From Amphibalanus amphitrite (taxonomy: Eukaryota; Arthropoda; Thecostraca; Balanomorpha; Balanidae): DNA of 64,000 nt. Below the pieces are notes generated by a model. The model had not been told where the DNA came from, made no database searches, and saw nothing but the letters and a program-made list of their open reading frames with translations. Shown in pieces: positions 7,609-56,900 of this stretch. The stretch is taken from assembly GCF_019059575.1 (NCBI RefSeq), contig NW_024881694.1:496001-560000 (forward strand), written 5' to 3'. The first letter of the stretch is position 1, and every line of letters begins with the position of its first letter. The position numbers and the translations under genes were made by a program.

Positions 7609-9654
7609 TCCGTCCGCTCGACGTCTGTTGCTGACAAGTGGCAGGTCTTTTTAGACAACTTTCTACCTGTCTTCGACGACCATGCCCCCCTCAAAAATGT
7701 GCTGATAAGAAATCCTACAGCGCCCCCTGTATCTGCCGCCACCCGCGACATTATGTCCAGACGTCGCTCCGCGTTACGTCGGCTAGGCCGCGAGTCTCCC
7801 GAGTATAAGGCTCTTAACCGCTCCGTCCGTGCCGCCTTACGCCGAGACCGCCGTCACGTCCTCCAAAACGAGATCAGCGAGCGTGGGGTAAACAAAGTCT
7901 GGCAAAGCATCAAATCAGTGATCGCCGGAAAGAAAGATGGTCCAAATATTCAGCCCGATCTATCTCCCGACGATCTGAACTCCTTCTTCGTCTCTGTCGG
8001 GCCCCGCATTGCCGCCGAACTGAGTACCCAAAACAACGATACTGATCTAAATGTACGTCTACCCCGTGTCGGCGCATGCAGCTTTAGGCCGAGGGCCATC
8101 ACTCTCGGGGAACTCGGACTCACAGTGTTCAACATGCGAAACTCTGCCGCGCGTGGCACTGACGGTATATGCATCCGCATGTTAAAAGTATGCTTCCAAA
8201 CTATTGGCGACATCATTTTACACATCATCAACGTCTCAATAACCCGTTCCGACATTCCTGACCCCTGGAAACACTCTATCGTTCAACCGATCTTCAAGTC
8301 TGGCAACCCATCTGACCCCAGCAATTTCAGACCGATCTCCCTAGTTCCCGTAATCATGAAAATCATCGAGCGTGTAATCCATCAGCAGCTCTATCACTAT
8401 CTCACCCATAACCACCTTCTTTCGTCTACCCAACACGGATTCCGCCCCCGACACTCCACTGAGACTGCGCTGCTGTCAGTCACAGATAGCATCCTTGCCG
8501 CCACCGATAGGGGTGAGATCTCAATGCTATGCCTCATAGACCTCAGCAAATGTTTTGACGTCATTGACCATGAACTCCTTGTCAAAAAGCTCCAAATCTA
8601 CGGTATTGAGACCTCCTGGTTTTCCGCTTATCTTCAGGGACACACGCAGAGTGTATCCCTGAAAGACAAAACCGGCCGTAAGATAACCTCTCGACCGCTC
8701 CCAAACACCGTAGGAGTTTTCCAGGGTTCGGCTCTGGGTCCCCTCCTCTTCACTATATTCTCCAACGACCTCTCACTATTTGCCGGAGACGCCACCGCTT
8801 ATCAGTACGCAGACGACACCCAGATATTGGTGAGCGGCCCACGCAACGACATCAGGAGTCTCATCTCGCGCATGGAGGCATCGCTAGAGTCACTTAACGC
8901 ATGGTTCTGCGCACACGCCCTGAAAGTCAACGCTTCTAAAACTCAACTGATGGTATTCGGTAGCCGACAAAACCTACGTAACCTGCCTCGCTTCAAAATC
9001 TCTTTCCGTGACGCTGAGCTCCTGCCGTGCGCGCAGGTGGGAAACCTAGGTGTTGTATTCGACGGCGCACTCACCTGGGAAGCACACGTGGCCGAGCTGA
9101 GCCGTCGCTGCACGGGCGTACTGATCGGCCTCTCCCACGCACGACACTGCCTCCCAGACGGTATCCTCAAAACGATCGTGACTGCACTCGTCATCTCGCG
9201 CGTCCAGTACTGCCTCACTGTATATGGAAACGGCTCCCAGAAAAACTTCGACCGACTCCAAAAAATTCTAAACTTTGCAGCACGGGTCATATTCGGCCGC
9301 CGGAAATTCGATCACGTCTCTGGCCTCCGCGATTCACTCGGATGGATGCCTCCGAAAGCTATGGCCGATGTTAAAACCATGGTAACTGCGCAGAAAATAA
9401 TAAGCAACGGCGAGCCCGAAGCACTAGCTGCCATCTTCACGAATAACAGTGACGCGCGAGAGAGATCCACACGACAGGACCACCTCTTCCACCTTCCACG
9501 CTCGCGGCTCGAGACTGGCAAGCGACGGTTCGCCTACCGGGCCGCGGCGCTACTCAACAGTCTGCCTCCCGGTGTCATCGAACAGCGCCCCGCCCAATTC
9601 GCCCGTGCGGCCAAGGCTGCAGTCTGTCCGGCGATGACGACCGCCCGACGATGA
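7609..9654 (+). mobile_element. Non-LTR retrotransposon, reverse transcriptase ORF (5'-truncated)
   Basis: An open frame of about 680 codons runs from just after an in-frame TAA at 7606-7608 to a TGA at 9652-9654. The first in-frame ATG is at 7753. The product has reverse transcriptase motifs in order: an IFKSG / NFRPISL block, HGFRPRHSTETALL, LIDLSKCFDVIDHELL, a QGSALGPLLF block, and the catalytic YADD box near 8800-8820. A thumb-like and C-terminal region follows. The STETALL and FDVIDH wording and the short 3' repeat tail fit the CR1/L2/Rex-like group, but clade assignment needs a tree. No apurinic endonuclease domain precedes the RT, so the copy is truncated at the 5' side, as usual for these elements. 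The RT frame itself has no stop or frameshift, so insertion may be fairly recent. In genomic terms this is a partial element, not a host gene. Confidence 0.9.
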
Positions 9655-11278: not shown

Positions 11279-22019
<10,741 letters not shown>

Positions 22020-26733: not shown

Positions 26734-26737
26734 TTAA

Positions 26738-27921
26738 CCCGGCAGGCGGTGGGCCTACCAGCCACCTTCCGCGCGGTAGGGGAGGGGCACTTTTTGCCCC
26801 CCCCGTATCTCCGAAACTACTGGACGGATCCGGAAAATTCAAACGGCGTTCGATAGTCCTGTCAAATTTGTCGAAGGAAACCAAATTTCATTGACCTCGG
26901 GGTCACCGATGACGTCACAGGTCAGGTCAAAGATAAAATGTTTCACCGTTCACGGGGCTTCTAGGGAAAGCGCTATAACACCGAGTAAAACGCATTTTGT
27001 CGAAAATCAGCGATAAGGCGTTAGTTGTCTAGCACATATGTTGCTATTAGAGGTCACTGGTCACACCAGGTCAGGTCACAGGTCAGGTCACCAAAGGTCA
27101 CCAAGGGTCACCACATGAGCCCAACTTTACTAAGGTTATGCGATGCATGTTTTATGGCCAGTTTTTAATTTCCAACTCAATGGTGTTGGTTATAAGACCA
27201 TCAGGTACGGTTTAGGTCACTTTCTGGTGGAGGTCAGGTCAAGGTCAGGTCAAAAAAGGTCAAATTTCAAAGTTGATATTTTTGCCTAAAATTGATATCG
27301 ATTCGATGCAGCTCGTCACGGGGAGTCTAATGGTGGTCTTTGTTTTGCGCTACGAGGTCTAGAATTGCTAAAAATTGAGTTTGAAAATTTGACGTCATCA
27401 ATTTTGAACAGTTTTTTCGCTATAACTTGGCCAAAAAAAGAGGTATCGATCTATAATTTGGTATGTAGGTAGAAGGCGGTAGGGGCTATCACATATATTC
27501 CGGTTTTTTCGAATATCAAAAAACTTTTTGGATTTTTTTGCTATTATATTCAAAAAATCTATTTTTTGATTTTTGGGGGTCAAAATCCAAAAAATTCGAA
27601 AAACCGAAATAGCAGTTTTGTAGCCCTTTTAATTCTACACCTTTTATGTCTGAAATATTTTTCTATATCTCTAAAGCTGTAGGCCTGACAGCTCTTCCCG
27701 CGAAACCTTTTTTGGGTCGAAAATGGCAAAAATAACGTCACTCTGACGTCATTAGCGGCCAACTTATCATAGCCTTTGGAAAAATTTTTGGTCACCATGT
27801 GCGCTAGCTGCTCCCGGGAGGGTACCGAAAGTTTGGTGACGATCGGCGCAGCGGTTCTCGAGATATATCGAAAAAACTAAAGGGGGGGGGGGGCAAAAAA
27901 ATGCCCCCCCCGCCTGGAAGG
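26738..27921. mobile_element. TTAA-flanked piggyBac-like non-autonomous element, copy 1
   Basis: Bounded by TTAA at 26734-26737 and 27922-27925. The outer bases are CCCGGCAGGCGG on the left and, reading inward on the other strand, CCTTCCAGGCGG on the right, so the inverted repeats are imperfect. Just inside each end sits a G/C-clamped hairpin (26779-26804 and 27882-27911). The interior holds about 15 AGGTCA/TGACCT half-sites, many in the overlapping form AGGTCAGGTCA, and several TGACGTCA-like sites. No transposase frame is present. TTAA duplication with CCC...GGG ends is the hallmark of the piggyBac superfamily; assignment is by that rule alone. Confidence 0.75.
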
Positions 27922-27925
27922 TTAA

Positions 27926-28635
27926 GAAGTACAAACGATACTTACGCTTAAAAAAGCTCTTTTCTGATGGAAAGTAATTAAAGAAAATACATTTCCCAAT
28001 TGTTTCCTTTCAGCGCCTTTCTGGACAGCTGTAGCCTGTATGGTTTGCGTAAAAATGCCAATTGAGAGACGCTCCCTTGAGGGGTGATGATAAATGGGGT
28101 GCATTTGGGCAAACTACCCAAATGCATGGTATGTATAACCAATTACAGGACGGAGACCCATGCGGCTAAACTCTCAGCGAAAGGCAATAACAAAGTTATT
28201 CGCTCAGCCTGGTGATTTTATTTCTTTCAGTATGCTGGATCGCGTCAGCTGAGCAGGAGGCGTCACTGCAGTATTGGATTTGGACCATATGAAAAACGGC
28301 CACGGAATGTGTGAGCGCTCAGATGCGCACTGCAAAATTGCCGTCGTCATATCCAGTCTGATAAGGTCATCAGGTGAGTAGTTTTACCAAGAAGCTCTAA
28401 TAAATGATGCCATTTGTCTCGGAGGGGCTATACGAGTCGAAGGTAACAAGTCGAACAAGGAAAACGAGATTGAAATGACTGAGGCGTCAAAAACATGTTG
28501 AGCGTATAAGTGAGGGTTATAGTTTTCTTCCAGGACGGACAATGTCCCTGCATTTTCGTTTGAATCTTAGAAGGAAACAAATCCATTATTGTCGATTTTA
28601 ACGTGGTGGAATGAAAGGTTACCGTAGTTCACATG
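27926..28635. other. Spacer between TTAA elements 1 and 2
   Basis: No gene or repeat recognised. Confidence 0.5.
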
Positions 28636-28639
28636 TTAA

Positions 28640-29857
28640 CCCGGCACCGCCTGGGCTATTTCCGTACCCACGACAGCCGGGGGGGGGGGGGGTCGGATCC
28701 GACCCCCCCCTGTTATCTCGAGAACCAATGGTCGTATCGAGCCCCGCGAGGCGGCGTTCGAAAGGTCTCTACGAGACCTTCCCAAAGCACTCTTAAGATT
28801 TTAAGATTGAGGTCAACTTTCGGGTCAAGGTCAGGTCAAAGGTCAAATTCAGGGGTTTTGCATGAATCGGCTTACGGACAGCGGAATCGATAGCTGCTGC
28901 TCGAAACTCACCAAAAATGACCTCAAAGGCCTAGTGAAGGTGCCATGTGCGTATAGGGGTCATACTAGGTACAGGTCAAGGTCAGGTCAGGTCACGAAAG
29001 GTCACGGTTTTCACTTTCTGCTACATGGGCGTGCGACACATGTTTTATGGCTTATTTTTCACGCCGAATCCGATGGTAATGGTTATATGTGACCCCAAGT
29101 CACTGTGCTGGTGATAAATGTGCATTGAAAGCATAAAAAATCGTTTATACTATACATAACTAAACGAGGGCTAAGAAAAAAAGGTCAATTTTTCAACTTT
29201 TTATTTTTGACATAAAAATGCACTTTTCTAGACGAGCTTTGTCCCAGGAATCTAGTGGTGCCATTTGTTTTCACATGCGATGTTCAGAAGTGCCTCTAAT
29301 TCACGAAAATGCCTATGACGTCACCATGCCCTATGCATGTTGGAGCTATTTTTTACAATTTGGGGGTCAAAAATCAAGATAGAAAGTTGAAATTTGGGGC
29401 ATCTAATGTTCTAATAGAGCTCTACAACATATATTCCGGTTTTTTGGAACTTCCAAAAATTTTGGATTTTATTAGCTGTTTTCCAAAAAATATAGTTTTT
29501 TGAATTTTTAGGGGTGAAAACGCATTTTATGGAAAATCCGAGATAGCCATTTTAAAGAACTCGTTGAGCTGCGTCTTTTGATGTCCTTAATTTGCAAATT
29601 GCTTCAAACCCTGATTTTTGGCGATTTTTTTTAACATTTACCACTTTTTGACTAAAAACGGCATGTAGTTACGTCACTAAAATCGATATATCTCAAAAAA
29701 AATTTGAAAATTTTTTCTTAAAAATTGCACAGGAGACGTCAAATTGATGGGGGAGAAGGTATGCCAAGTTTCAAGTAGATAGCGAAAGTGGTTCATGAGT
29801 TATTCAAGAAAAACGGAGGGGGGGTCGGATCCGACCCCCCCCCCAGGCGGTCGCGGG
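28640..29857. mobile_element. TTAA-flanked piggyBac-like non-autonomous element, copy 2
   Basis: TTAA at 28636-28639 and 29858-29861. Ends are CCCGGCACCGCC (left) and CCCGCGACCGCC (right, reverse strand). A perfect G-run/TCGGATCCGA/C-run palindrome lies inside each end (28679-28710 and 29818-29844). About 11 AGGTCA half-sites are clustered at 28810-28840 and 28970-29010, including a DR1 arrangement AGGTCAAAGGTCA. One TGACGTCA-like site lies near 29314. No coding capacity was recognised. Confidence 0.82.
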
Positions 29858-29861
29858 TTAA

Positions 29862-31030
29862 CAAGAGACGAGAAACTGAGAAAAACACCTTCAGTCCTTC
29901 AGCAATCCAAGTAACTATTAGGTCTCAGACCCCAGCTCTGCCTGTTCTGTTCGTATTGCATGTTAGTTACTGCGGAGTTGTGCTGTTGTGCCTTCATTTT
30001 TATTGAACGCAGGTGAATGGATTCGAGACCTGGTCCGGTATCATTATTTGACCTTGTGACCTTCTGTCTGGAAGCCGCGCCATCGGCTGAATATTGAATG
30101 GCCCGTCTAACTGGACACCTCTCAGATTTATTCAGTAGATGCTCTCTTCGCTTCCAACATGGAATCGGACTACCCAGTCATGGTTTCGTGCACAGCTAGA
30201 GTATTCGACAGACTTCTTGCTGTGACCTGGAAAATAAAGCAATGGACAAACAGTGGTGAGGATGAGAATGGTGGGCTAGGTACGTGACTTCTACCTTTAC
30301 GTCCTATATCGCCTTTTGTTAACGCGATAATGCAAGTGTAATATTTTACGCCGAAAATCAGTTCTAAGGAACTCTTTTTCATAATTGGGATTTGGGAACA
30401 TCAGAGTAATAGAAATTAACATTTCTGCAAACGTTGATATGCGAATAGAAGATGCCATTTCGGTAGAAATTATGTCTCTTTTTACATTGAAAGTGACTCA
30501 TCGCCCTTCTGAGGCTCCCCACCAGAGACATTCTATGGTTTTCGGTCCCCCAATACAATCGCACGAATAAATTGATCGGAAATATATCAGCACGCAGTTC
30601 TCGATGAGAATTTATTTTCCCCTCGGCGCGTTAAAATGACCGTAATCGCCTGGGACGTCGATTTAGCTGTAGGAGACCGGGGAATCGGCCGTCTCCAGGG
30701 ACATGTTTTATTAATGACCGCGGCCGCGCCAGGCGGCTATTCAGCGCCGGGCTGCACTCCCATACCAAAGCCGCGGCCGGCCAGAACGCATCTGGATGCA
30801 CGATAGAGGCTCAGATTGATTGGGGTTCTACTTTTTTGTGTTGGTATGGGATAATAGGTGGGCAGCATGGTAATGTTTGTGCGGCATTGTCAGCTACTGA
30901 GTAGCAGAGGTATACTAATGCTTTCCATTGGCGTTAATTGGACATTGGGAAAGTGGCAAAGTTCAAATTATTACGCTGGTGTTCTTGATGACAAGTTTGG
31001 TTATTTTATGTGCAAAATATTCTATACAGG
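29862..31030. other. Spacer, no gene recognised
   Basis: Mixed-composition DNA. Open frames of 60-70 codons only. No splice-supported exon or RNA gene was seen. Confidence 0.5.
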
Positions 31031-31134
31031 GGTGTCCACCGTCCACCGTCCACCGTCCCCCGTCCACCGTCCCCCGTCCTACGTCCACCCTCCACCCTCC
31101 ACCGTCCACTCTCCATTGTCCACCGTCCACCGTT
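31031..31134. repeat. Heptamer minisatellite, unit CCACCGT
   Basis: About fifteen tandem, partly degenerate copies of a 7-base unit (CCACCGT with CCCCCGT, CCACCCT and CCACTCT variants). Because the unit length is not a multiple of three, all forward frames read as Pro/Ser/His/Thr repeats, which explains three overlapping open frames here. Confidence 0.9.
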
Positions 31135-31207
31135 CCTCAGAAGCAGAGCCCCGGTGCCTTACCGCGGCTCTCGGCCTAGTCGGAAACCCACCGTAAATTA
31201 GACTAAA

Positions 31208-31544
31208 TTTTTTTTTGTTTGTTTGTTTTGTTGGGTTAGGCCCTTTCGGTCGACAAGACCATTGCAGAGCCGGAAGGATGATAGGAATTAGGGGGAGACA
31301 TTGGTCTGGACAGGCACCCTAGAGAGTCGCCGGGGCTGAGCCCGTCCGAATGGACAGACCAACCAGCCCCCCAAGCACTCTCTGCACCCGGCTACGGGGT
31401 GCAGCTCCCTCGGGAGCAGCGGTGCCGCTCCAAGGGAGCAGCCCGCAAGAGATAAAGTTGCCTGTCCAGCCCGGAGGGGGTTGCGGTGTGGAGGAGAAGG
31501 ATTTCAGTATCCTGAGGATAGAAGCACGGAAAGGTATTTTTTTT
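31208..31544 (-). mobile_element. SINE-like or truncated retroelement insertion
   Basis: An approximately 340-base insert is flanked by a direct repeat TTAGACTAAA at 31198-31207 and 31545-31554. Its left edge is a T run followed by GTTTGTTTG. On the minus strand this is an A-rich 3' tail after a GGGCCTAACCCAAC segment, as expected for target-primed reverse transcription. No coding region or clear tRNA-type promoter boxes were recognised, so it may be a SINE or the 3' UTR of a truncated LINE. The target itself repeats TTAGACTAAA, so the duplication call is somewhat uncertain. Confidence 0.55.
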
Positions 31545-31554
31545 TTAGACTAAA

Positions 31555-33244
31555 TTAGACTAAAATGAAATTCTACGCATCTGGCCGGCAGCCGAGGTGA
31601 TCCTGTAGAGTTGGGGCGCAGTTCCTACTTCCTAGGCAATTATGCAGAACTTGTGTCGGTCAGAGCTGTCGCTAATACGGCTGCTGGCGATGGGCAGACG
31701 ACGCTTGGACACCGGGACTTCTCAGCTAATGAATCGTGAGGCGGCGCCCTGCGTGGCTTTCCATAGGGTATGATGGCTCCTCGGGGAGGGACTGAGACGA
31801 TCCTCCGGCTGGGTTCCTGAGGGAGAGGCCCAGACGATATAACGGGAACACCGGGAAGTGGTGGCGGAATTACCAAGATCTCCTGTCAAATGTGTTTGGT
31901 GTGGTAGTGTCATGGGTATTATTCAACAATATATTTGTTTAATGTTTGTTGTGTTGTGTTGTGTTGATAAAAGTTTCTCCCATAAGGCTAGTTTAAAAAA
32001 ATTAGTTACTTTTTACTGTAGAAGTATTTACATAAGTGTTTACAAGTAAGTAGTTAGCATGTAGACAGCACTAGCAGGACACTACCAAGCAGCCTTTACT
32101 AATCAATGTAGAAGTTATGATATCCTGGCGACAAATCAGCCGCTCAGATTGGCATGTCATCATGTTTCGCATGAGTCGTCAGGTGCAGTTAATTATCGTT
32201 AATTACATGCGACTTTACGGTTCTAAATACATCTGAAATCAACTCACTCAATGTGCATAAGTCGACTGCATGACCCTAAGGAGCGGGGAGTGAAATGTGA
32301 TCAATATGTTTTCGGATAACGAAGACTGCTCACTGCTCATGAAATTTGCCCAAGAGTCAATGGCAAAATCATCGGATTTCCTTTTCAATGCATTAGTTTC
32401 TATATTGAGTTCACCCACAGTCCACACCCATTGTTATCAAAAAGTAATACAATCGCGGGATATTTCCCGCCTGATACGAACTGATCCAGTGCCAGGTCCC
32501 AGAAATACACCGCATCAATTGGAAATTGACGCGCAGGAGAGGGCATTATGGATGGAAAGTCAACTTCTCCTCAAACTTCTGATTCGGTGATGATACCTCT
32601 CCAGCCGGGAGCCTTCCTGGAAGCCGCTGAATAAATGCAGCTTCTGGCCTGGCTGTGATCGGGGAGCGTACCGCATGCTCTCTCTCTCTCACGGCGTGTC
32701 TCAGACGACCGTGCCAGACCGACCGGCTGGAATCGTCGCCAGAATTCCGCCCAGGGGGCCGTCGGACTGGTGGCGAGGTCGCGCGCGCGAGACGCGCCGA
32801 CAGACAAGACGTAGCGGCCGCCCTCCAGGCCCGGCAGACCAATAAAGGGGGACACTTTAATCCGGAGCCGACGATTACAATTTGTCGGCCACAGCGTACC
32901 CGGCTGTTATTACTCATTCAAATGATGGATGGTCGGAAGAGCAAGGCCGAGCTCAGGAAAGGACTGAGCAGTTCAGACGGGATGGAAGGGATAATTTAGG
33001 ACGGACCGGGTGGATGGGATAGGCGAGACGGAACGGATTGGATGGGATGAGATGGGAGGGATCTGTCATGGGAGATAAAAATTGCGGCAAAAAGAGGAAT
33101 GAGACATTTGAAATAGGTGCTCAGTAAAACAAAAGAACCATTGTCAAGCAAGACGACCACGAACAGCTCAGCAATGCTATTACCAATAAATTAAAAACAG
33201 ATCAAAAGGGTCTAAGGAGCTGAATACATGGTGAACTAGAATGG
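31555..33244. other. Spacer, no gene recognised
   Basis: Contains a short GTGTT run near 31950 and GGATGG/GGGATG-rich sequence at about 32925-33062. GC-rich open frames at 32546-32999 occur on both strands and lack domain character. Confidence 0.5.
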
Positions 33245-33248
33245 TTAA

Positions 33249-34252
33249 CCCGCGCACCGACGGGGGTCTGCGCCAACTTCGCACCGACGGGGGGGGGGGC
33301 GGATGACCGCCCCCCCCTGAGATCTCGAGAACGAAGCAAGATAGCGACAAGCGGTAAACGGCATCGGATACGCACGGCCAAGATCTACAATTTTTACAAA
33401 GGTCATTTTCAGGTCAGGTCAAAGATGACGTCACAGGGGTCGAAAAAGTCAAAATGGCGGCGCTAGATATGGAGAGAGTTTTTCTCGAATAACTTTCGAA
33501 TTAGTCAAGATAGGAACAAACTAAGGGCATCATCGTGATCCTCTCGTCAATCCGCATCGAGTGATATATATGTTGACCTCGAAAGGTCAAGGTCAAAGGT
33601 TGACCTCAGGTCACGTGACCTCGAGGTCATCATGTATATCATTCGATGCTTCTTGACGAGCTGAACACAATGAGACCATCCACGCGTCTGTATCTTGTTC
33701 CTGTACGGAGTTATTGGCCAAAAACCTTTGGTGACCTTTGATGACGTCACATGACCTCACAGCTGCCCAACAGCAAAACAGACCTCAAGGTAGTGAAGGT
33801 TGATCGTATATGAAGTCATGTAAAGTATATGGGGCCATTCCGACCCGTTTTAGTGGTAAAAACAGGGAGTTGATTTTTCCCCCATTGACTTATAATGGGG
33901 AGGTCGCGAAATTGATCTGACCTTAGGTCACCGATATCAAAATTCCGAGATATACAAATTGTAGATACTAATGACCTTATAATATCCTGCGACTTTCAAA
34001 GGCCTCCGACATCTACTGTAGCTGTGGCACGGTGACAAAGTTGCAAAAAAGTGACTTGAGGTTGGGTCATTCAAAGTGACCTGGTGACCTGACCTTAAAA
34101 GGTAGGAAGTTCAAACTTGCACACCATGTGTAAAATTGATGAGGTTATAGTCATACCAAATTTCGCGGCGCTACGCGCCGCGGTTTTCCCGCTATCCGCG
34201 AAAAACCTCAGGGGGGGGGGCGGATATCCGCCCACCCCCGTCGGTGCGCGGG
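33249..34252. mobile_element. TTAA-flanked piggyBac-like non-autonomous element, copy 3
   Basis: TTAA at 33245-33248 and 34253-34256. Inverted ends begin CCCGCGCACCGACGGGGG on both sides. Hairpin-forming G/C runs lie at 33289-33317 and 34211-34239, with cores CGGATGACCG and CGGATATCCG. About 18 AGGTCA/TGACCT half-sites occur, in both orientations, plus TGACGTCA sites near 33425 and 33742. The word GCACCGACGGGG occurs twice at the left end. No transposase was seen. Confidence 0.85.
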
Positions 34253-34256
34253 TTAA

Positions 34257-35478
34257 TATTTCAGAATACCTATAAGTTAAAGCAAGTGGGCGTTCTAAAC
34301 ATATCGACTAGATGGAGATTGGCTGTGAACTGTGATCATTTTTTGGTACACCTGACCTGCTGGCTTCTTGTTACGATCCATCGAACAAGAATGCGATGTT
34401 TCCAGGCACCTTATTTTGCAGAGCTGAGCGAAATAAGAACCGAGACAACGTTCAAAGAGATCAGGAAATCAACCGATTCGAAGTTGAAAGCGGCAGGTCG
34501 TGGACCGGCACAGGGCCTAGCCAACTCCAAGCGTTCGTTGGAGCATATAAGCCGCCGTTCTCTGATGTTTCCATCTGTTAGGGTCGGAGACCGTGAGCGG
34601 CCGCGGGCTCAGCTGCACAGTGGCTGCGACTCTGACATCCGATATATGGCGTGTGTTCTGCAGACGAGCGCGCAGCTCGCCAGAAATACGGGGACCAATC
34701 GGAGCGCGACCCGACATCAGGTGGTTCGGTGTGCGGGAGGGTGCTGAGGAGTTGGAGAGTTGGGGTACTGGGATAGGGCAGACTCGCAGGCTGGAAGGCT
34801 GATCGGCAGGCATAAAGGTGGACACGAGGACAGGCAGATGGGCAGACTTAGGAAGAAGCAGGCAGGCTCACTGACTGCTTGACGGATACTGTGTCTGGAT
34901 GCCAAACTGTTCATGATTACTAAAGTTTTTTTTCTCAAATAATTTATGCTTGATCATTTACATCCCACCGAGCCTTATATGGTCCGTAGTACGTAACAAA
35001 AGTAGCGTGTGAGTATAACACAATCACACTTCTGGAAACAAGAGTTTATTGAATATTTCCACGCGAGGTGATGTCGCCAGCTGCAGCGTTTCGAATATTA
35101 TTAAGGAGGTATATTATTACCGCCAGAATTGTGAATTTTTATTGCTCTCAGAGAAAACCCACAGTCGTCGCAGGAGTCGATATGTTGTGGGTAGGTATAA
35201 CTGAACTACCATCGCTGCCATTGTCCTCCCACATCTCCAAGCGGTCCACACGTGCAGCTGTGAGCGCTGAGTCGTGAGTACCCTAGCTGGCCGGTTCTGT
35301 CGGCTGCAGCGCACATCGCTGCCGCTTACTGCCCATAGATCAATAGCGGCTGAAACCACCGCCGGAGCGTCTGACAGCCGGTCAGAGACGCGACCTCAGG
35401 GGCGCCGCCCTGAACCGTTTGTCCGACTGTGGGTGAAACGGCGCCGAGACAGGCCCAGAGCGTTAATTGTGACTTATA
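34257..35478. other. Spacer, no gene recognised
   Basis: The open frame at 34244-34747 starts inside the preceding element and has no domain features. Nothing else is supported. Confidence 0.5.
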
Positions 35479-35682
35479 GATCTGAGGCCAGTTTTACCAA
35501 TAGAAAAAAAGCCGCGCAGCCGGAATTTTTTGCCTTAAGACCGCTTCACATACGGAGCGTAAACGCGCTGGGCAAGTAAGCGGATAGGGCTTTACCGTTT
35601 ACACTCCGTATGTGAATCGGTCTTTAGGCAAATAATTCCGGTATGCGGCTATTTTTCTGGTGGTAAAACTGGCCTCTGGATC
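35479..35682. repeat. Long inverted repeat (two 86-base arms, 32-base loop)
   Basis: The left arm 35479-35564 and right arm 35597-35682 are inverted copies at roughly 85% identity. Matching words include GAGGCCAGTTTTACC, GCCGGAATT, and CACATACGGAG on the left against CTCCGTATGTG on the right. The single-stranded form would fold into a long hairpin. It could be a foldback MITE or a source of double-stranded RNA. No target duplication was recognised. Confidence 0.85.
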
Positions 35683-37336
35683 AAAAGGAATTTTGTTCTT
35701 GGCTGGGAAACGGATAAATAATCCAAAGATATTCGCATCACGAATGGGCTCAAACCACTTCCTTTATGAAATGAATGCACAATTAAAATGTTTCAGATCC
35801 TTCTTTTTAAACATATCTTGAACAGATACAGTCTTTCTGGAGCTAAACGTTGTCTGTTTTGCAAAAGAGAGAACTAAATGTCGTTTTCAGTGAAATTCCT
35901 GAATATTCATTAGGAACTGTTAATAAAGTAGTCGGACACGGCCCGAGATAAATGAACTCACCCTTCTGGGACAGTGGACAAATACTTTAGGCAAATGAGG
36001 CATCAGTGTCAGTTAGTTACCTAACCTTATTTGTAGACTGCACCAGGCACGCTCCTGACGACACATGAGTATTCGACCAGCGAAGAATAGTCGGTCTGGT
36101 GTAGATGAAATCGCAATTTTTGTGAAAATCATTTGTCCCAAGCAAAAGCAGGAAAAAATACAAAAAATGCTCTGTGATTCACTGACATACCTATTTATTT
36201 ACATTTACTGAAAGCCAAAGATCACAACACCTTGAAATCCACTTTGTCTCCAGCAGAGTACATACTCATTACTCATGTTGCCTCTCTCTTGTAGATTGGC
36301 ATTCACCGCACTATAACTCAGGTATGACTGGATAATGGCAATAACTGAGCAGGACAAAACACTTGACCTTAATGGACACTTTGGTGGAGGAGGAAATTGG
36401 CAACTATATTACTACTCAAGCTCGGTTTATCCATTTCAAGTTCTAGCAGCTAATTTAGGTCTGAAGCCATTTGTAGTGCTCCCCTCCAACCAACCATGCA
36501 TATGATCAAGTCCCGTTCGGCTTAGTATTCCACTTTGAATTTCGCGAACCCGGCGGTCCACGAAAAGACGGATGAATATACCGTGTCGCCTGTTGAGCTC
36601 CGACCATGAGGTTATAGAGTTCCCATAATGGTTATAATGCGTTCCATGACTTGGCGCTAAGTCGGATGGGAGTCACTCGTGCAGACTCTGACCGGTTCCG
36701 ACCAACCGACTTCCGACTACTTTTCTAGCAGCTCCGCGCCTGATTGGAGCGGTTGGTACGTGGTTGCGGGTTGTGGGACAGTGCTTTTTTTACTTACCCA
36801 TGTACAACTTTTTATCATGGTGAGCCCTAGTCAGAATCTTCAACATCTCAGAAAGCAAGATTTGTATTGGTTTATCATACTGTGTTCGAAATTCGAATGC
36901 TAAATTAAGGCACTGTCGTGGGCTGTCGAGCTCATGTTACCTGAGTTCTCGAAAAATCGCATGCATCAGAGTGGAGTTGTCGGTTTGGAGTACGAATGCG
37001 GGAAAACTTTTCCCATCAATCTCTCTTGCTGTCCAACTGAGAGCGGGTAGTTTGCATTCATTGCCACGAGCTGCCAAAATAATACGAACCACACAGATAA
37101 CTGGCTATGTATTTACTGAAAGAAAAAGACGGCTCTGTTCTCGTTACAAATAAGCTCATTTTTAATATAAGAATTGCGGCAGTTTATTTCAGCTGACATG
37201 AGTAAAATAAAAAGGACCTCCTTAACATCTATAGGTAAGGTTTTGTGCAAGTGTCAAGGCGCCGCGCCACCTATTTAGCGGAGCAAAAACAGATTTCAGA
37301 CAGAGACGAAGACAGACGATTTCGTTCAAAAGTGTA
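35683..37336. other. Spacer, no gene recognised
   Basis: AT-rich sequence with only short open frames. Confidence 0.5.
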
Positions 37337-37340
37337 TTAA

Positions 37341-37818
37341 AGGGACCCTCCCACCTTAACATTAGATTTGAGTTGAGATAGCCAAAATGGGGTCCCTGGC
37401 TCACAATTACCGGTTTCGGCACTCACAACATCGAGAAATGCCTTAAATCGGAAATATTGAATTTCAAAATTGCAGCATTTTGATTCAGAGGGGCTAATGC
37501 TTAGGAATACCCCTCTGAATGTGTGACGTCAGCGCAAATATCTAATGATTTTTAAATGTTTGACTAAAACGTTTTGTAGCACGCGGTGGTATATGCTATT
37601 TGCGCGCAACATCTGCCGCAAACGCCGCACTTCTAAAATAAAGTCGCTAGAAACAGCGGAGATCCCAAAAAAGTAAACAAAAGTAAAAGTCTAATATCTT
37701 GAAAACCGGTGAATATTTTTCGGTGAAATTTGGTAGATATTCGTTTTCGCTCTTTCTGAACCGAGCGACATCACTTTCATGCCAATTCATAAACTTTTTT
37801 GAAGGTGGGAGGGTCCCT
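37341..37818. mobile_element. TTAA-flanked MITE with AGGGACCCTCCCACCTT ends
   Basis: Inverted ends are AGGGACCCTCCCACCTT at the left and AAGGTGGGAGGGTCCCT at the right. TTAA occurs at 37337-37340 and 37819-37822. An internal palindrome, ATTCAGAGGGG ... CCCCTCTGAAT, lies at about 37483-37519. The right TTAA is shared with the next element. A TA duplication with slightly longer ends is an alternative reading. Confidence 0.8.
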
Positions 37819-37822
37819 TTAA

Positions 37823-38728
37823 CCCTCGCCCGCACATGCCATTTTCCCATCCTAGAACGCACATGGGGGGGTGGTTGCCACCCCCCCCGCGCCATTTCGT
37901 TCCTGTTGGAGATAGAGCTTAGCAGTAAAGACCAAAAAGATTCTTTGGGAAGAGACGAATCCAATGATACCCAGTTTTACCTTCTCAGGTCAGTCATTGA
38001 CCTTCCAGGTCAGGTCAAACTAAAAAATGTTGCTGTTTTGGGTCACCGTTGGATATCAAGTGCGCTGCTTATCAAATACCGATGACGATGCTGTTTTCTG
38101 GTGCCAAGCCAGCTAGAACCTCTTTGTCACGCTATCCGACCAGAATTTTGCTGCTGAGGTCATTTCAGGTCAAGTTAGGTCAAGGTCAATTATATGTGTT
38201 TGTATGTCTGTGTGTGTCTGTGTGTATACTGATGTGTGCACCGATTGTTTTTGGGTCCATATCACATGAAATCATGATCTGAGAAGCTTTTACCAAAAAT
38301 GCAGTCAAAAAACTTCACAAAAAGTAAATTCAGCTTGCCTAAAACGCAATTATCTTAGATGACCTAGGTTGACCTTGACCCTGACCTTGACCCCTGTACA
38401 TCGTCGAACAACATGTTACATGATAGGTGGGAAGTAAGACTGGCAAAAAAGGCCGAAATCAGGGTGTCAAAAGCTCACAAGGCCCATGGCAAACGCAAGA
38501 TGTTGAGAATTGGCCATTTGGGTCATGACATGACCTGAAAAACAAGGTCATATCTCCGAAACCAAAAATCACAGAAACTTGAAATTGTCAGTGGACATCA
38601 AGAAAGGATAGAGGAGCAGCTATACGAAAAATCAGCCTTCTAGCTCTAAAAATGTTGAGTGCAGAGCAGAAAGACTACCTGGGGGGGGAGGGGGTGGCAA
38701 CCACCCCCCCCCCATGTGCGGGCGAGGG
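37823..38728. mobile_element. TTAA-flanked piggyBac-like non-autonomous element, copy 4
   Basis: TTAA at 37819-37822 and 38729-38732. Both ends read CCCTCGCCCGCACATG from outside in. Hairpin-forming runs lie at 37865-37888 and 38681-38713, with core GTGGTTGCCAC. About 13 AGGTCA/TGACCT half-sites lie in three clusters near 37988-38020, 38157-38190 and 38358-38395. A short TGTGTGTCTG-type run is internal. No coding capacity was recognised. Confidence 0.85.
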
Positions 38729-38732
38729 TTAA

Positions 38733-40230: not shown

Positions 40231-41766
40231 CAGGCGCGGATCCAGGGGGGGGGGGCGACGGGGGCGGCCGCCCCCCCCCCCCCGACATCCGAAAAAGGCG
40301 CCCATAGCCCGCGGCAGAGAGGGCGCCCCGAGCAAAACAGAGGCGACACAGCAAAGGTTGAGCAGAAATAGGGCGCCTCCAGCAGAAGTTGGGCTCACCA
40401 AGCAGGAGAGCGACGCCCAATTGCCCATTCCCAGCAGATCAGAGTCGCCCCAGAAGCAGATGGGCGCCCCCAGCAGAAGAGGGGCGTCTTATTACAAGAA
40501 TAAAAAGATGCCTTCTGTTCAAGAGGGGCACTCCTGGCAGGAGAGGTGTCCCCCTGAAGAGGAGCGACGCCCCAGCAAAAGTAGAGAGGCGCCCGCATTC
40601 CAAGAAGAAGAGGGGCGCCCTAACCGCAGATAGGCGCCCCAACAAAGAAAAAGAGAAGCCCCATAATAAAAAAATGGGTTCCACTGGCAGAAAAGGGGCG
40701 CCCCCGGCAGCGGAGGGGGCCCAGCAGGAGCAAGGAGCCTCCAGCAGGAGACGGGCGCCCCAGCGAGGGGGGCGCCCCAGCAGAAGAGAGGAGCCCCCTG
40801 CAGGAGAGGGGCGCCCTCAGCAGAAGAGGGGCGCCCCAGCAGAAGAGAGGCGCCACAGCAAAAGTTGATCAGAGATGGGGAGCCTTCAGCAGAGGTTGGG
40901 CTCGCCAAGCAGGATAGGGGCGCCCCATTGACAATATCCGGCAGAAGACAGACGCCCCAGCAGCAGATGGGCGCCCCCGGTAGAAGAGGGGCGCCTCATT
41001 ACAAGAAGAAAAGGAGTATATTCTGCACAAGAGGGGCGCCCCTGAGGCAGCGGAAGGGCAACCCCAGGAGAGGGGCTGTGCCCCAGTAAAAGGAGAGTGG
41101 TGCCCCGCTCCGAGCAGAAGAGGGGCGCCCAAGCAAAAAGAGGAGCCCCATAAGAAGAAAAGGGATGCCTCTGGCAGGAGAGAGACGTCCCCCGCAGTGG
41201 AAGGGCGCCCCCAGAAGAGGCGTCTCTAGCAAAAGATAAGTGCCCCTGCAGGAGAGGGGCACCCCAGCAAAAGTTGGGCAGAAATGGGGCGCCCCCAGCA
41301 GAATTAGGGGTCGCCGAACAGGAAAGGGCCGCCCCATTCACAGTAGAAAAAGGGACTCCCCAGCAGCAAAGGCGTGCCGTAACAGAAAAGGTGCACTCCC
41401 AGTAGAAGCGGGACGCATCAAGAAGAAGAGGGGCACTTCTAGCAAAAAAAATGGGCGTCCCAGATAAGTGGGCCGCCTACAGCAAATTGGTCGTTCTTAG
41501 AAGAAATGAGGCGACTTCAGCAAAGTGAGCCTCCCTATGACGGATTGGGCGATCCAAGCAGAGGTTGGGAGCAAATATCTTCAAAAGGGCGGCGCTGCGC
41601 GCAGCCGTCTTAAAGATATTTGCGAAAAACCTAGGGGGACGTGACAACGCACGGCGTGGGTTTTAAACTCTCGATTTTGACGACGGTTTGGCGCCCCCGG
41701 ATTGCCAGGTCGCCCCTATTTCAACTTGCCGCCCCCCCCTCCCGAAAATTCCTGGATCCGCCCCTG
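40231..41766. mobile_element. hAT-like non-autonomous element with internal repeat array
   Basis: An eight-base target duplication, ATACCCCG, occurs at 40223-40230 and 41767-41774. The ends are CAGGCGCGGATCCAGG on the left and CAGGGGCGGATCCAGG on the reverse strand at the right. CAG-type ends with 8-base duplications indicate the hAT superfamily. A long G-run/C-run palindrome lies inside the left end (about 40245-40283). The interior is a repeat array and encodes no recognisable transposase. The many long open frames on both strands are by-products of the stop-poor GC-rich repeat. Confidence 0.85.
40345..41560. repeat. Degenerate GGCGCCCC-AGCAGAAG repeat array with higher-order periodicity
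   Basis: Dozens of imperfect units of about 20-25 bases combine GGGGCGCCCC with AGCAGAAGAG. A higher-order unit is visible. The phrase GCAAAAGTTG followed by CAGAAATGGGGCGCC-like sequence recurs at 40351, 40858 and 41267 (spacings 507 and 409). Each time it is followed by matching landmarks such as AGCAGATGGGCGCCCCC. A decayed fourth start may lie near 41559. Confidence 0.8.
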
Positions 41767-47636: not shown

Positions 47637-47845
47637 CAGGGACGTAGCCAAGGGGGGGGGGGCACAGGGGCCATGCCCCCCTCTAAAGGCGAAAAATAAA
47701 ATAAAACTTTAAAAAAATACCCACAGCTGCACCACACCCCAAGAGATAGTGGGCCAAATCCGAAGAGTTTTCCTTTTCTGGAGGGGCACGACACTAGGCA
47801 GCGACCTGTGGCCCCTCCCTGAGCAAAATCCTGGCTACGTGCCCG
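47637..47845. mobile_element. hAT MITE, 209 bases, 8-base target duplication
   Basis: CAACCGAC is duplicated at 47629-47636 and 47846-47853. The ends are CAGGGACGTAGCCAAGG on the left and CGGGCACGTAGCCAGG on the reverse strand at the right. A G run follows the left end. It is nested inside the 3.7-kb element and is therefore younger than it. Confidence 0.87.
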
Positions 47846-49582: not shown

Positions 49583-51862
<2,280 letters not shown>

Positions 51863-53346: not shown

Positions 53347-53921
53347 TCAGCTGCTGCGCACCAGCTGCTCGAGCTGCCGCGCGCACGCCGCCACCTTCTC
53401 CGGCTCGGGGACGTTTTTCAGCCTCTCCAGCACCGACTCCACCTCCAGACTCCGGGCGAGCGCCGTCATGTCCCTGGCGGCCGCCGCCAGCGTCCCGAAC
53501 CCGACCAGCGCTCGGAACTGCGCCTCGCCGTCGGTCAGCTGCTGGAGCAGCACACCCAGTGCCGAGAGCGTCTGCGCGCGCGCCTCCAGGTCCCCGGCGC
53601 GTGACAGGCTGACGGCCACGTTGAGCAGGAGAGTGGCCAGCGCCACCTCCACGGCGCGGCTGGCGGCCGGGAACAGCGCCAGCGCGGCGGCCGAGACGTC
53701 CTCGCGCGCCGCCATCACGGCCCGCTCGCCGCTGGCGTGCCGGAAGAGGTTACAGGTGGCGCGCAGAGCTAGCATCTGGTTGGCGGGGGGCGAGTCGGGC
53801 TGCGCGAACCGCTGCAGAGCCGCCAGCAGCGCGGGCCGCCGCTCCTCGGCGCAGAAGTACTGGCAGGTCTCCGGGTTCCGGACGGCCAGTCGCAGCAGGT
53901 CGATCGCCGGGAACGCCAGCT
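53347..53921 (-). CDS. PLAA: PLAA terminal exon: PUL armadillo-like domain
   Basis: Acceptor TCCTCCGTCAG; ends at TGA 53349-53347. Encodes [50 protein letters not shown] and [18 protein letters not shown], the helical repeats of the PUL domain. Very GC-rich, so long open frames exist on the opposite strand. Confidence 0.95.
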
Positions 53922-56900
53922 CTGACGGAGGAGAGGAGAGAGGTCAGTGAACATGACATTCATCCCATGACACCACTCGCCATCAGCTATATAAAATGGG
54001 CACGGGTCTGACAGGTTCAATAGCAAACAGGCGATTGAGTAGAGTGCATGTCAGCAAAACATCAGATATCAAATGGCTCCACAGACCGGCCTGGCACGCT
54101 ACTTCCCTGTCTTATACCACACCAGTATCACTTGCCTAGATTTAACACAATCGTTTGCCTCGGGCCACACACACCCCTGTCCTCTAGTCTCTAGCCACCC
54201 GCAGTACGCAGCGCGCCGAGCTAACCTTTGGGCCAGTCCAGCAGCCGGAGCAGCATGGCCAGGTGATGGGGGGCCGGCGACGCCGTCGGCTCGGCCAGCT
54301 TGGTCAGCTCCTGCAGCACCGTCTCCTCCAGCCGGTGGCACCCGTCGCCGGTGCGCTGGTTGAACTCACGCAGCTTGGCTGGGGGTGGGGAAGGGAAATG
54401 CGTAAGTGGAAAAGCCAAAGAGAGTTTTGATAGTCGAATAATACAATGTGTACAAGGTAAACAATCCAGTAATTAAGTGACTTTGTTTGAAGATCATCTA
54501 TACCCATCATTCAAAAGCATGCACTCTGAAAATCGTGGACCAGTACTATTGCTATGCCAGTTGGTAGCTCGCAACCGCAAAACGTATGTTAGTCAGGATA
54601 TGAAGAAACAAGCTTTCCAGCTTGTGCACGACCAAACCCAAACTGCCCTAAACATACTCTGGTAGATACTCACTGGCCATTCCCTCCACGTTTCCTTTGT
54701 CGAAGTACACAAAGTCGTTCTGCGGGAAGTATCGTGACGCGGGTGGGGCGGCGGCGGGGGCGGGGGTGGTGTCCATAGCGGTTCCGGGCGGTACGTAGCG
54801 GCCACTGCCAGTGAAGGGATCTGCGCCGCCGGCCCCCACGTGGTGTTCCCCGGCCGCGGGGACGTACCGACCCGCTCCTGCGGAGATGAGAGCACACCTC
54901 CGGTTAGAGAAGGGCGTGTGTGCCAAACATTTAAGATTTAATCATGGGTGGTCATTGCTGAAGAACAAGGACGATGTTTGGCTACCTATGAGCGCCATCT
55001 GCAATTGAACTGGAAACCTTCCAGTCCATGAAGCCGGTAGGGTTAACGGATGAACAACACAATAACGACTGCTTGGCATAAAGCAATCCAATACTTAATA
55101 TAGGTAGATCTCCTCAGCTAGAAAACATCGACGATGGAGGACATTGAAAACTTGCAGAAAAAATCGACACTCGAAAGCAAACGCGCCTTGGTGACAAACA
55201 AAGCTGTCCATTCAAGTTGCTCATCAACGCCCATCGTATCCTAATCTACCCACTCACCAGTGAAGGGATCATAGTACTCTCCCGACGGCTGAGGCGGCTT
55301 GGCGGCCGCCCCGGCGCCGCCGCTGTTCTTGATGATGAAGTTGGCCACCGTATCGAGGAACTGCTGGCTCAGCTCGTGTTTGTGGATGAAGCGCTGCGCC
55401 GCCTGCCACGGGTCCTCGGACGTGTTGTAGGGCAGCTTCAGCGGCGGCGCGCCCTCCTGGATGTCCACCGTGAACACGTAGTCGTACTCCTGGTTGGAGG
55501 GACGGGAGGGAGTCAGTGGCGGACAGGTAGGGTGGATATGACAGCCCTCCGTAATACAGCCTAAGATATGAGACAGTTCAGTAAAACATTCGTGCTAGGG
55601 GAGACAAACTAGGAAAGACGTTCACTTTTCATTAAAAAAAAAAAACTGATCACATGGCAGCGGCCCTCCGAAACAATTTTTGTGCTACATCTCGATGATG
55701 CACCACATCCTAGGAAATCACAGACCCACCATATTGAGCCACACTCCGGAACAGAGGATCCTTGCCCCCTCCGACATCTCTCCATCTTCACTCACCTTCC
55801 CATCGTGAAGCACCTTCCCTGAGGTCTCAGTGGAGCCGCCAGAGGCGCCCACCACGTCTCCGACCTTTTTCCAGAGCTGCTCGGAGGCCGACCACGAGTG
55901 GCAGGTGACGTTCGTACCGTCCCGTACCATCACAGTCTGACCATCCCGGCGGCCGGGCGCCAGCAGCACCTCCTTGCCGGGGAGGTCAGCCACCTGTAGG
56001 AGGGGCGGGTCAGGTCAGCTGGTCAACCATCTATAAAAGGAGGCGGTCCGGTCAGGTCATGTACCTACAGAAGAGATAGGCTAGGTCAGACATGAAGACG
56101 ATGAATGCTAATTGCGAGCCAGCCCAGTGATCAATGCTGAGTCGTGAGGTGGGTAGCGGGAATCTGAATTCCAAGAGGGAATAAAATCATATGTGATGTT
56201 TGACTTGGAGTAACGTGCCAGAGCTTCTGTAGTAAACGCGGTAGAATTGGTTACACGAATTAATTTGATCTATTCGACTGCACACCGTCCAAACGTCTGT
56301 ACCTTGTATCCTCCGAGCTCTGCCTTGCTGAGCTGAGTGCCGGCAACCTCCTGTTCGTACACCTCCTGTATATCGGGCGGCGCCTGCCGCTCCGGGGCGG
56401 CGCTGAACACACGGCACACGCCGTCACTGTGGCAGAGAGGGATAATAGTCACTGGAGTGAAACAGACCGCTGAACACCCGGCACACGCCGTCACTGTGGC
56501 AGAGAGGGACCATGGTCACTGGAGTGTACAGACCGCTAAACACCCGGCACACGCCGTCACTGAGGCAGAGAGGGATAAGAGTCACTGGAGTGAAACAGAT
56601 CGCTTAACACCCGGCACACGCCGTCACTGCGGTAAGAAGGGGTCACTTCAGGGAACACAGGACAGGTAACACCAGACACACGGCGTCATTGCGGAAAAGA
56701 GTCAGAGTGGGTCATACAAAACAGCGTGCCGCTAAACGGGTGTCTGGGGCGCATAGCGACGCGAGACTGCCAGCTCTCTGGCCGTCTGCCAGTCTGATCA
56801 CGCGTGACGGCGTCCTAACACCGAACATAAAACCCATGTGTACAATAATGCACAACTCACTCCTCCTCTACCGTCTCTGCCACCAAGGTCATCTTCGGAC

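Follow-up and report, generated by a model that had tools for sequence, protein, structure and literature searches.

AGGTCA clusters about 170 bp apart in four piggyBac-type elements of Amphibalanus amphitrite suggest reading by one DNA-binding protein, perhaps aiding mobility

Among the closest described systems is the piggyBac transposon of Trichoplusia ni, in which, according to the accessible excerpts of the cited sources, bp 34-63 of the right end are almost identical to bp 7-35 of the left end, a 19-bp palindrome is bound by the transposase CRD (PMC7351741), and the ends contain spacers of 3 bp and 31 bp (PMC8151067). The terminal motif of the piggyBac superfamily is given as CC[C/T]T in the excerpted report on the CMITEs of Acropora, non-autonomous TTAA elements of piggyBac type that are about 100 bp long, vary at the tips by family and have something in common in the interior, with one conserved 75-bp block; the authors of that report propose that the interior aids transposition (PMC2872659). 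In piggyBat of Myotis lucifugus, one end holds a repeated motif and an imperfect palindrome, and the two ends are unlike; the right end has no palindrome in the accessible description, so the asymmetric-palindrome trait is not universal in the superfamily (PMC11707139). Other counterparts are the IR/DR ends of Sleeping Beauty, with protein-binding sites at the tip and well inside (PMC7827188, excerpt), and the primate Alu DR2 elements, a mobile family rich in AGGTCA-type half-sites (PMC1785376, excerpt).

The window that we analysed comprises 64,000 nt of Amphibalanus amphitrite (GCF_019059575.1, contig NW_024881694.1, positions 496,001-560,000, forward strand). It contains four elements, all on the forward strand: E1 at 26734-27925 (1192 bp including both TTAA copies), E2 at 28636-29861 (1226 bp), E3 at 33245-34256 (1012 bp), and E4 at 37819-38732 (914 bp). 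TTAA is present on both sides of all four, and E4 shares its left TTAA with another TTAA element (37337-37822), for which it is the right copy; the boundaries proposed in the first-pass annotation are right and exclude both TTAA copies. With high confidence, these are non-autonomous elements of piggyBac type. The sample thus consists of four elements from one window, of which E1 and E2 are clearly related (58% identity over E1 1-917 and E2 1-950) and E2 and E3 are alike at the ends. Only two of the listed ORFs of at least 110 aa overlap the elements, one in E3 and one in E4, and neither has a Pfam match. Members of the piggyBac superfamily are moved by a DDD transposase and excise precisely; no piggyBac transposase domain was found in the 18 of the 87 long ORFs of the window that were scanned. 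MITEs are non-coding, usually under 500 bp and present in many copies; at 914-1226 bp, the elements described here exceed that usual size. The ORFs scanned in the window also yielded tyrosine phosphatase, fn3, PFU, and PUL domains.

The ends of the elements follow the T. ni layout, with TTAA flanks and a palindromic inner repeat at both ends, and with a long end that holds a copy of the other end, here 27 bp in, compared with a displacement of 27-28 bp in the excerpted descriptions of T. ni piggyBac (PMC7351741, PMC8151067). Within an element, the tips match at 16 of 16 positions in E4 and in E3, at 14 of 16 in E2, and at 12 of 16 in E1. All eight tips start with CCC or CCT (CCY), with the strict CC[C/T]T motif in three (the right end of E1 and both ends of E4) and CCCG in the remaining five. 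A G-tract palindrome lies at each end of all four elements, with the core centred 54-58.5 bp from the left tip and 23.5-30 bp from the right tip (left-right differences of 31.5, 30, 29, and 24 bp). In each case, one end is longer, and its inner portion is a near-copy of the short end (local alignment with G and C runs collapsed, p<=0.0005 for each of the four). These near-copies, all on the forward strand, containing the palindrome and lying 27 bp further in, are found at 26765-26804 in E1 (long-end bp 17-72 against short-end bp 1-45; palindrome pair I14), 28667-28709 in E2, 33280-33320 in E3, and 37851-37888 in E4. The corresponding short-end palindromes, on the reverse strand, are at 27886-27911 (core centre 23.5 bp from the tip), 29815-29842 (28.5 bp), 34212-34239 (27.5 bp), and 38685-38712 (30 bp), respectively.

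Between elements, 10 of the 12 end comparisons made by the same procedure fail to reach p 0.05, and significance is attained by the short ends of E2 and E3 (0.0035) and of E2 and E4 (0.007); E2 also aligns with E3 at both ends. The tips and palindromes mostly differ between elements, so that two or more piggyBac-like transposases may be responsible for moving them. The tip and palindrome sequences, with their G tracts, presumably also differ from those of T. ni piggyBac. The recurrence of the T. ni-type duplicated-end geometry in largely different sequence supports the view of the asymmetry as functional.

Unlike T. ni piggyBac, the four elements, in which no transposase gene was found, carry phased AGGTCA clusters in the body. 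The first-pass annotation had estimated about 57 AGGTCA/TGACCT words in the four elements against roughly two expected by chance, and both figures hold: the exact count is 57 (15 in E1, 11 in E2, 18 in E3, and 13 in E4), and dinucleotide shuffles yield a total mean of 2.15 (maximum 8 in 200), with per-element means of 0.43-0.59 (maximum 4 in 300). The remainder of the window shows a mild excess (47 words in 59,656 bp compared with 28.5 expected under a first-order Markov model), and the highest count outside the elements, among 1,092 overlapping 1,085-bp windows, is 6 words. We rejected word density as a general trait of the local transposons; neither of the two neighbours checked, one a TTAA element of 486 bp and the other a 1,548-bp stretch with a hAT-like element, contains a word. 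When words with starts within 6 bp are merged, 42 separate units persist, so that a single simple-repeat expansion, which would have explained the enrichment away, is rejected as the source and the enrichment stands.

Neighbouring words are most commonly arranged as the overlapping AGGTCAGGTCA (DR-1, 11 cases), followed by DR4 (6), DR0 (4), DR1 (2), DR2 (1), and DR5 (1), in agreement with the DR0, DR1, and overlapping arrangements noted originally. The extended site TCAAGGTCA, whose presence had been annotated, occurs seven times but is not independent of the words: in all seven cases, it directly follows GG, its TCA being the end of a preceding GGTCA, that is, these are abutting half-sites, and FTZ-F1/ERR extended monomer sites are rejected. 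Across the four elements, GGGTCA is enriched as well (12 compared with 2.75 expected), as is the palindrome TGACGTCA (6 compared with 0.04; none in E4), whereas AGTTCA is not (1 compared with 2.36). ACGTCA occurs 15 times compared with 1.54 expected, and 12 of these occurrences lie inside the six TGACGTCA. The start-to-start spacings of GGTCA on the same strand are 5 bp in 11 cases, 10 bp in 8, and 6 bp in 8. The AGGTCANAGGTCA row of the word table, a pattern with a literal N, was disregarded. The W-box TTGACC is the site of WRKY proteins, and a WRKY-like reader of the word was considered as well; an A follows just 21 of the 57 words.

The words are gathered into clusters. E1 has cluster A at 26892-26929 (unstranded; 3 AGGTCA, with GGGTCA and TGACGTCA) and clusters B and C on the forward strand at 27051-27100 and 27214-27262, with 6 AGGTCA each. 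In E2, clusters A (28810-28845; 4 AGGTCA and one GGGTCA) and B (28973-29004; 5 AGGTCA) are on the forward strand, lone words occur at 28918 and 29182, and the third cluster is a single word. E3 starts with cluster A (33400-33421, forward strand; 3 AGGTCA, then TGACGTCA) and cluster B (33574-33629; 7 AGGTCA on both strands), which lies in the middle of an imperfect palindrome spanning about 250 bp; these are followed by a middle cluster on the reverse strand (33732-33757; 2 AGGTCA around TGACGTCA), an unstranded AGGTCA pair at 33918-33930 (starts 327 and 334 bp from the right end; a lone word comes next at 33972), and an inverted right-end cluster on the reverse strand (34077-34095; 3 AGGTCA, starts 162-175 bp from the right end). 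E4 contains cluster A (37987-38017, unstranded) and cluster B (38157-38188, forward strand), with 4 AGGTCA each, an inverted mirror of cluster B on the reverse strand (38360-38387; 3 AGGTCA, starts 346-368 bp from the right end), and an unstranded mirror of cluster A (38531-38550; 2 AGGTCA, starts 183 and 197 bp from the right end).

Measured from the left edge, all four elements have clusters at about 155-210 and 318-385 bp. By tests of position and periodicity that were all devised after the word map was seen, the left-anchored AGGTCA profiles correlate at 0.756 compared with a null of 0.063 (p<=0.001), with significant agreement for E1 and E4 (p<=0.009), E1 and E3 (0.008), and E3 and E4 (0.03) with AGGTCA alone, two of these three pair tests rising to p of about 0.06 with the wider word set; periodicity peaks at 172 bp (p<=0.0005; 0.001 with the wider word set) and holds when any one element is dropped (p<=0.002). 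Agreement anchored at the right edge is weak (p<=0.125 for AGGTCA alone; p<=0.025 once GGGTCA and ACGTCA are included), and each of the three pairs tested from this edge fails to reach 0.05, whichever word set is used. Mirror symmetry is found in E4 (p<=0.0165 and 0.0005); it is borderline in E3 (0.08) and inconsistent in E1 (0.75 and 0.049), and E2 shows none (0.78 and 0.54). The clusters of E1 are similar to one another, as are those of E2. The spacers gave 552 comparisons (2 of the 26, under 60 bp, left out), and the 18 best include a single match within one element, inverted and in E3; thus, tandem duplication of a module of about 170 bp is not seen in the spacers.

The common body plan consists of PuGGTCA clusters (mostly AGGTCA) at steps of about 172 bp from the left edge, with right-edge mirroring that is clear in E4 and perhaps extends to E3; TGACGTCA is part of it in three of the four elements. 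Whereas the CMITEs share a block of sequence, the elements described here, at 0.9-1.2 kb, share a word and its spacing. In piggyBat, the repeated motif is GCGGGA, which recurs every 44 bp over the 120 bp next to the tip, unlike the arrangement in E1-E4, and the accessible part of that report mentions no AGGTCA clusters (PMC11707139). The sites at the tip and well inside that make E1-E4 resemble Sleeping Beauty are putative; Sleeping Beauty, with its TA target and Tc1/mariner transposase, has one inner site per end in the excerpted account (PMC7827188), whereas E1-E4 have several clusters of an unrelated word. The Alu DR2 elements, as excerpted, arose by CpG decay in a retroelement (PMC1785376), whereas E1-E4 are DNA transposons in which arrays of overlapping, DR4, and DR0 type lie at comparable distances from one edge.

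Several lines of evidence bear on the maintenance of the words. Neutral decay at the divergence of E1 and E2 would predict about 76 decayed words, yet 16 of the 18 one-mismatch neighbours total 27 compared with 31.7 expected, that is, decayed words show no excess, and only GGGTCA and ACGTCA are clearly above expectation. Between E1 and E2, words are retained at four to six times the rate of other hexamers, namely, 8 of 15 compared with 106 of 829 in one direction (Fisher 2e-4) and 7 of 11 compared with 95 of 863 in the other (Fisher 5e-5), although alignment of the repeats may have helped this retention. The original proposal, in which the density was taken as an argument for selection or a binding role, is supported by the lack of a decayed excess, the E1/E2 retention, and the coincident left-anchored positions, and the words are probably maintained by selection. 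Given the shared positions, the repeat at about 172 bp, the absence of a decayed excess, and the E1/E2 retention, we read the clusters as a maintained, putative binding array.

Overall, the explanation that we consider best, with about an even chance of being correct, is that these are piggyBac-type elements whose phased PuGGTCA clusters are kept because protein binding aids the element. The clusters, about 170 bp apart, suggest reading by one DNA-binding protein, perhaps aiding mobility. One sequence-specific protein would bind the clusters, which would be kept as the binding benefits the element, and the benefit might be that DNA is held accessible or nucleosomes are phased, so that the two ends are found and paired.

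The principal alternative is that the clusters have no binding role but are ancestral AGGTC pentamer runs that arose by slippage and were inherited, with slippage and conversion keeping the words uniform. GGTCA spacings of 5 bp (11) and 10 bp (8) suggest a pentamer register, runs of the same pentamer are microsatellites in unrelated viral contigs, the clusters inside one element resemble each other, and E1-E3 are related, at least at the ends. Nevertheless, we consider slippage unlikely: the spacing of 6 is as common as that of 10 (8 cases), 42 separate units remain after merging, cluster positions agree even though the spacers mostly cannot be aligned between elements, decayed words are not in excess, and the palindrome TGACGTCA, which is not a product of pentamer repeats, is enriched too.

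If the clusters are indeed bound, the protein is somewhat more likely to be a host factor than the transposase, because ends of several kinds come with the same word. A benefit to the element via a host factor has slightly less than an even chance, and that this factor is a nuclear receptor is a tentative suggestion, an orphan nuclear receptor being the leading candidate because of the PuGGTCA rule. Alternatively, the words might be bound by the transposase, or by a zinc-finger partner that the autonomous element encodes, and act much as the inner sites do in Sleeping Beauty or the additional ones in piggyBat. The distance from the left edge sets the clusters, and the excerpted sources provide precedents: Sleeping Beauty requires inner and outer sites in its ends of about 220 bp (PMC7827188), the left end of piggyBat has three motif-palindrome repeats (PMC11707139), and extra binding sites stimulate piggyBac (PMC7351741). 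Furthermore, the short ends of E2 and E3, and of E2 and E4, are somewhat similar, so that one transposase for several elements is possible. However, the word is constant while most tips and palindromes differ (10 of 12 comparisons fail p 0.05), and the clusters extend about 500 bp inward, beyond the piggyBac and piggyBat sites described in the accessible sources (PMC7351741, PMC8151067, PMC11707139), which makes transposase sites improbable.

Of the two readings offered in the first-pass annotation, a factor whose binding serves the element itself is a better fit than a spread of hormone-response elements, which is supported only in part; the former is preferred because of the similar left-edge distances and because the commonest spacing lies outside DR1-DR5, the arrangements named for nuclear receptors (PMC1785376, excerpt). 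Occupation of the half-sites by a nuclear receptor, with a response of host genes in the vicinity, appears quite improbable: the sharp half-site with its tolerance at base 1 (GGGTCA, 12 vs 2.75) partly matches the RGKTCA rule, DR4 occurs 6 times, and Alu-borne DR2 sites recruit RAR (PMC1785376, excerpt), but overlap by one base is commonest (11), DR1, DR2, and DR5 are rare (2, 1, and 1), AGTTCA, which RGKTCA permits, is not enriched (1 vs 2.36), TCAAGGTCA never occurs without a preceding GGTCA (7 of 7), and gene control needs no similar distance from the left edge.

A bolder version of the preferred reading, namely, binding that aids the element, is speculative and, in our judgement, unlikely: transposase-specific ends would diversify while a common chassis of PuGGTCA arrays at nucleosome-scale steps from the edge persists. 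A host orphan nuclear receptor would read this chassis and open or phase the chromatin, so that any compatible transposase would find the element a good substrate. If so, what endures as the selfish unit would be the chassis and not the ends, and it would depend on the host receptor. Should other copies confirm the pattern, this would be a mobile group recognised by body plan (word and spacing) rather than by sequence, as well as a ready-made supply of nuclear-receptor half-sites in an animal genome. It would also provide a direct test of why some non-autonomous piggyBac-type elements have more in common in the interior than at the ends, a question left open in the accessible part of the coral CMITE paper (PMC2872659).

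In the open-access literature (subscription journals and Repbase being outside the search), we found no prior report of piggyBac-type elements with AGGTCA arrays. A further scan of public collections for the word returned 2 contigs, with few words and ORFs that appear phage-like. In addition, 52 viral stretches were scored for word density, and among the 10 that were mapped (the dense stretches L013 and L021 lie outside these 10), high density traces to pentamer microsatellites or to short runs of local extent.

The first-pass annotation counted about 57 copies of the hexamer AGGTCA (or TGACCT on the other strand) in four TTAA-flanked elements, E1-E4 (26734-27925, 28636-29861, 33245-34256 and 37819-38732, both TTAA copies included). 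This count is exact (15, 11, 18 and 13, respectively), compared to 2.15 words expected by chance and a maximum of 8 in 200 dinucleotide shuffles. When hexamers within the elements are ranked by z-score, AGGTCA comes first, with CCCCCC behind it. The window outside E1-E4 contains 47 words in 59,656 bp vs 28.5 expected, and there is no AGGTCA in either a nearby 486-bp TTAA element (37337-37822) or a nearby 1,548-bp stretch that includes a hAT-like element. A second enriched sequence is the palindrome TGACGTCA, presumably a CRE/bZIP-type site, with six copies vs 0.04 expected, all in E1-E3 and three of them adjoining AGGTCA clusters; E4 lacks it. A separate group of four same-strand AGGTCA words, in steps of 29, 42 and 29 bp, lies outside E1-E4 at 55983-56088.

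The words are not only numerous but similarly placed relative to the left edge. With positions counted from the start of the left TTAA, every element has AGGTCA clusters beginning at 156-175 and at 318-339. Further words start at 481-524 in E1, 488-508 in E3 and 542-564 in E4; E2 has one, at 547. In tests of position, symmetry and periodicity, all designed after the word map was known, smoothed left-anchored profiles of the first 480 bp gave a mean correlation of 0.756 for AGGTCA vs 0.063 under random rotations (p ≤ 0.001). Pairwise p values were 0.009 (E1-E4), 0.008 (E1-E3) and 0.03 (E3-E4); with a wider word set (AGGTCA, GGGTCA and ACGTCA), they were 0.057, 0.002 and 0.062, respectively, and p ≤ 0.001 for all four elements. 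Right-anchored agreement is weak (p ≤ 0.125 for AGGTCA alone and 0.025 for the wider set), and none of the three right-anchored pairs tested reached p 0.05. Mirror symmetry is strong in E4 (p 0.0165 and 0.0005) and marginal in E3 (p 0.08); E1 gives a mixed result (p 0.75 and 0.049), and E2 shows none (p 0.78 and 0.54). The pooled word autocorrelation has its maximum at 172 bp and rises again near 350 bp; against randomly placed clusters, the 172-bp peak has p ≤ 0.0005 (0.001 for the wider set), and it survives removal of any one element (p ≤ 0.002). The elements' own peaks are at 164, 173, 173 and 178 bp, and 172 bp is a distance of nucleosome scale. Among the 18 best of 552 comparisons of inter-cluster spacers, from which 2 of the 26 spacers were omitted as too short, the sole within-element match is an inverted one in E3; this element contains an imperfect palindrome of ~250 bp with one word cluster at its centre.

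All four elements have TTAA at both edges and matching tips, and a G-tract palindrome is present in both ends of each. Measured from the left tip, the centre of the palindrome core lies at 55, 58.5, 56.5 and 54 bp in E1, E2, E3 and E4; measured from the right tip, it lies at 23.5, 28.5, 27.5 and 30 bp. The short (right) end is nearly copied in the inner part of the long (left) end, with the aligned stretch beginning 27 bp further in, in 4/4 elements; once G and C runs were collapsed to two bases, this similarity exceeded all 2,000 shuffles in each element. A long end holding a displaced near-copy of the short end is also the arrangement reported for T. ni piggyBac, with 13-bp tips, a 19-bp inner repeat and spacers of 3 and 31 bp (PMC8151067), near identity of RE bp 34-63 to LE bp 7-35, and binding of the palindrome by a CRD dimer (PMC7351741). 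Of the 8 ends, 3 have the tip motif CC[C/T]T in its strict form, and all 8 have CCC or CCT. Pfam detected no piggyBac transposase domain in 18 scanned of the 87 ORFs of at least 110 aa. Judging from this geometry and the lack of such a domain among the scanned ORFs, E1-E4 are apparently non-autonomous elements with piggyBac-type ends, larger than typical MITEs.

E1 and E2 are 58% identical over ~950 bp, E2 and E3 align at both ends (identity 75% in 96 columns and 66% in 149), and E1 and E3 align over ~210 bp from the left edge (59%) and again close to the right end; E4 shares only short matching stretches with the others. With G and C runs collapsed, 10 of the 12 inter-element end comparisons failed to reach p 0.05; the two that did paired the short end of E2 with that of E3 (p 0.0035) and with that of E4 (p 0.007). 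The two ends of an element are therefore far more alike than the ends of different elements, but the four elements are not wholly unrelated, and as four elements within 12 kb they form a small and partly related sample. No relatives were found among the loci examined in scans of sequence collections. The E1 right tip (27900-27921) carries CCAGGCGG, the reverse complement of CCGCCTGG, which is found in both E2 tips; the two motifs occupy about equal positions in otherwise homologous elements. Just inside the palindrome, ATCTCGAGAACC occurs in 3 of the 8 ends (27853-27864, 28715-28726 and 33322-33333, with 0, 0 and 1 mismatch); the whole window contains 8 matches with up to 2 mismatches vs 4.46 expected, and the three end-located copies rank best.

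Outside the words, E1 and E2 are 67% identical, and decay of old words at this background rate would leave ~76 one-mismatch words beside the 57 intact ones. The 18 one-mismatch neighbours of AGGTCA were observed 54 times in E1-E4 vs about 36 by chance, and the excess is almost wholly due to GGGTCA (12 vs 2.75 expected) and ACGTCA (15 vs 1.54, 12 of these within the six TGACGTCA palindromes); the remaining 16 neighbours total 27 vs 31.7 expected. Among transitions, tolerance is seen at base 1 only, a PuGGTCA rule (rough binomial 8e-7, from rounded excess counts). From E1 to E2, 8 of the 15 words aligned to an identical word vs 106 of 829 other hexamers (Fisher 2e-4), and from E2 to E1, 7 of the 11 were retained vs 95 of 863 (Fisher 5e-5), although repeats can inflate both values.

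The half-site itself and the tolerance at base 1 speak for a nuclear receptor as a candidate reader of the word. A host factor would be somewhat likelier than the transposase in this role because several end types share one word. Three observations weigh against a standard response element: half-sites overlapping by one base are the most frequent arrangement (11), followed by DR4 (6), DR0 (4) and DR1 (2); AGTTCA is not enriched; and TCAAGGTCA, the extended FTZ-F1/ERR-type site noticed in the first-pass annotation, arises from abutting half-sites in 7 of 7 cases. Slippage as the origin of the words would account for same-strand GGTCA spacings of 5 bp (11 cases) and 10 bp (8), but a spacing of 6 bp is as frequent as 10 (8 cases).

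The closest precedent appears to be the coral CMITEs, piggyBac/TTAA elements in which the interior is more conserved than the tips and is proposed by the authors to take part in transposition (PMC2872659); in E1-E4, the common feature is the word and its spacing. Searches of an open-access library returned no prior report of AGGTCA arrays in piggyBac/TTAA-type elements.

The 486-bp TTAA-flanked element at 37337-37822 has tips AGGGACCCTCCCACCT (16/16 bases matching) and one TGACGTCA, and its right TTAA doubles as the left TTAA of E4. The element at about 40231-41766, which from its appearance we take to be hAT-like, is flanked on both sides by the 8-bp ATACCCCG and has ends CAGG..CGGATCCAGG and CCTGGATCCGCCCCTG; close to its left end it carries a G-tract palindrome, and its interior contains a ~20-bp minisatellite. 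At 41589-41638 it shares 78% identity with a portion of the E3 inner right end, so that different element types have end-proximal sequence in common. A putative further transposon end, by its appearance, lies at 47637-47690, where a G-tract palindrome comes after CAGGGACGTAGCC. The window also contains a LINE-like reverse transcriptase (7609-9654) and, on either side of E1-E4, animal genes: one resembling a receptor-type phosphatase (14524-22019, plus strand; fn3 and tyrosine-phosphatase domains), an adenylate-kinase fragment (50469-50840, plus strand) and a PLAA-like gene (53347-58053, minus strand; WD40, PFU and PUL domains).
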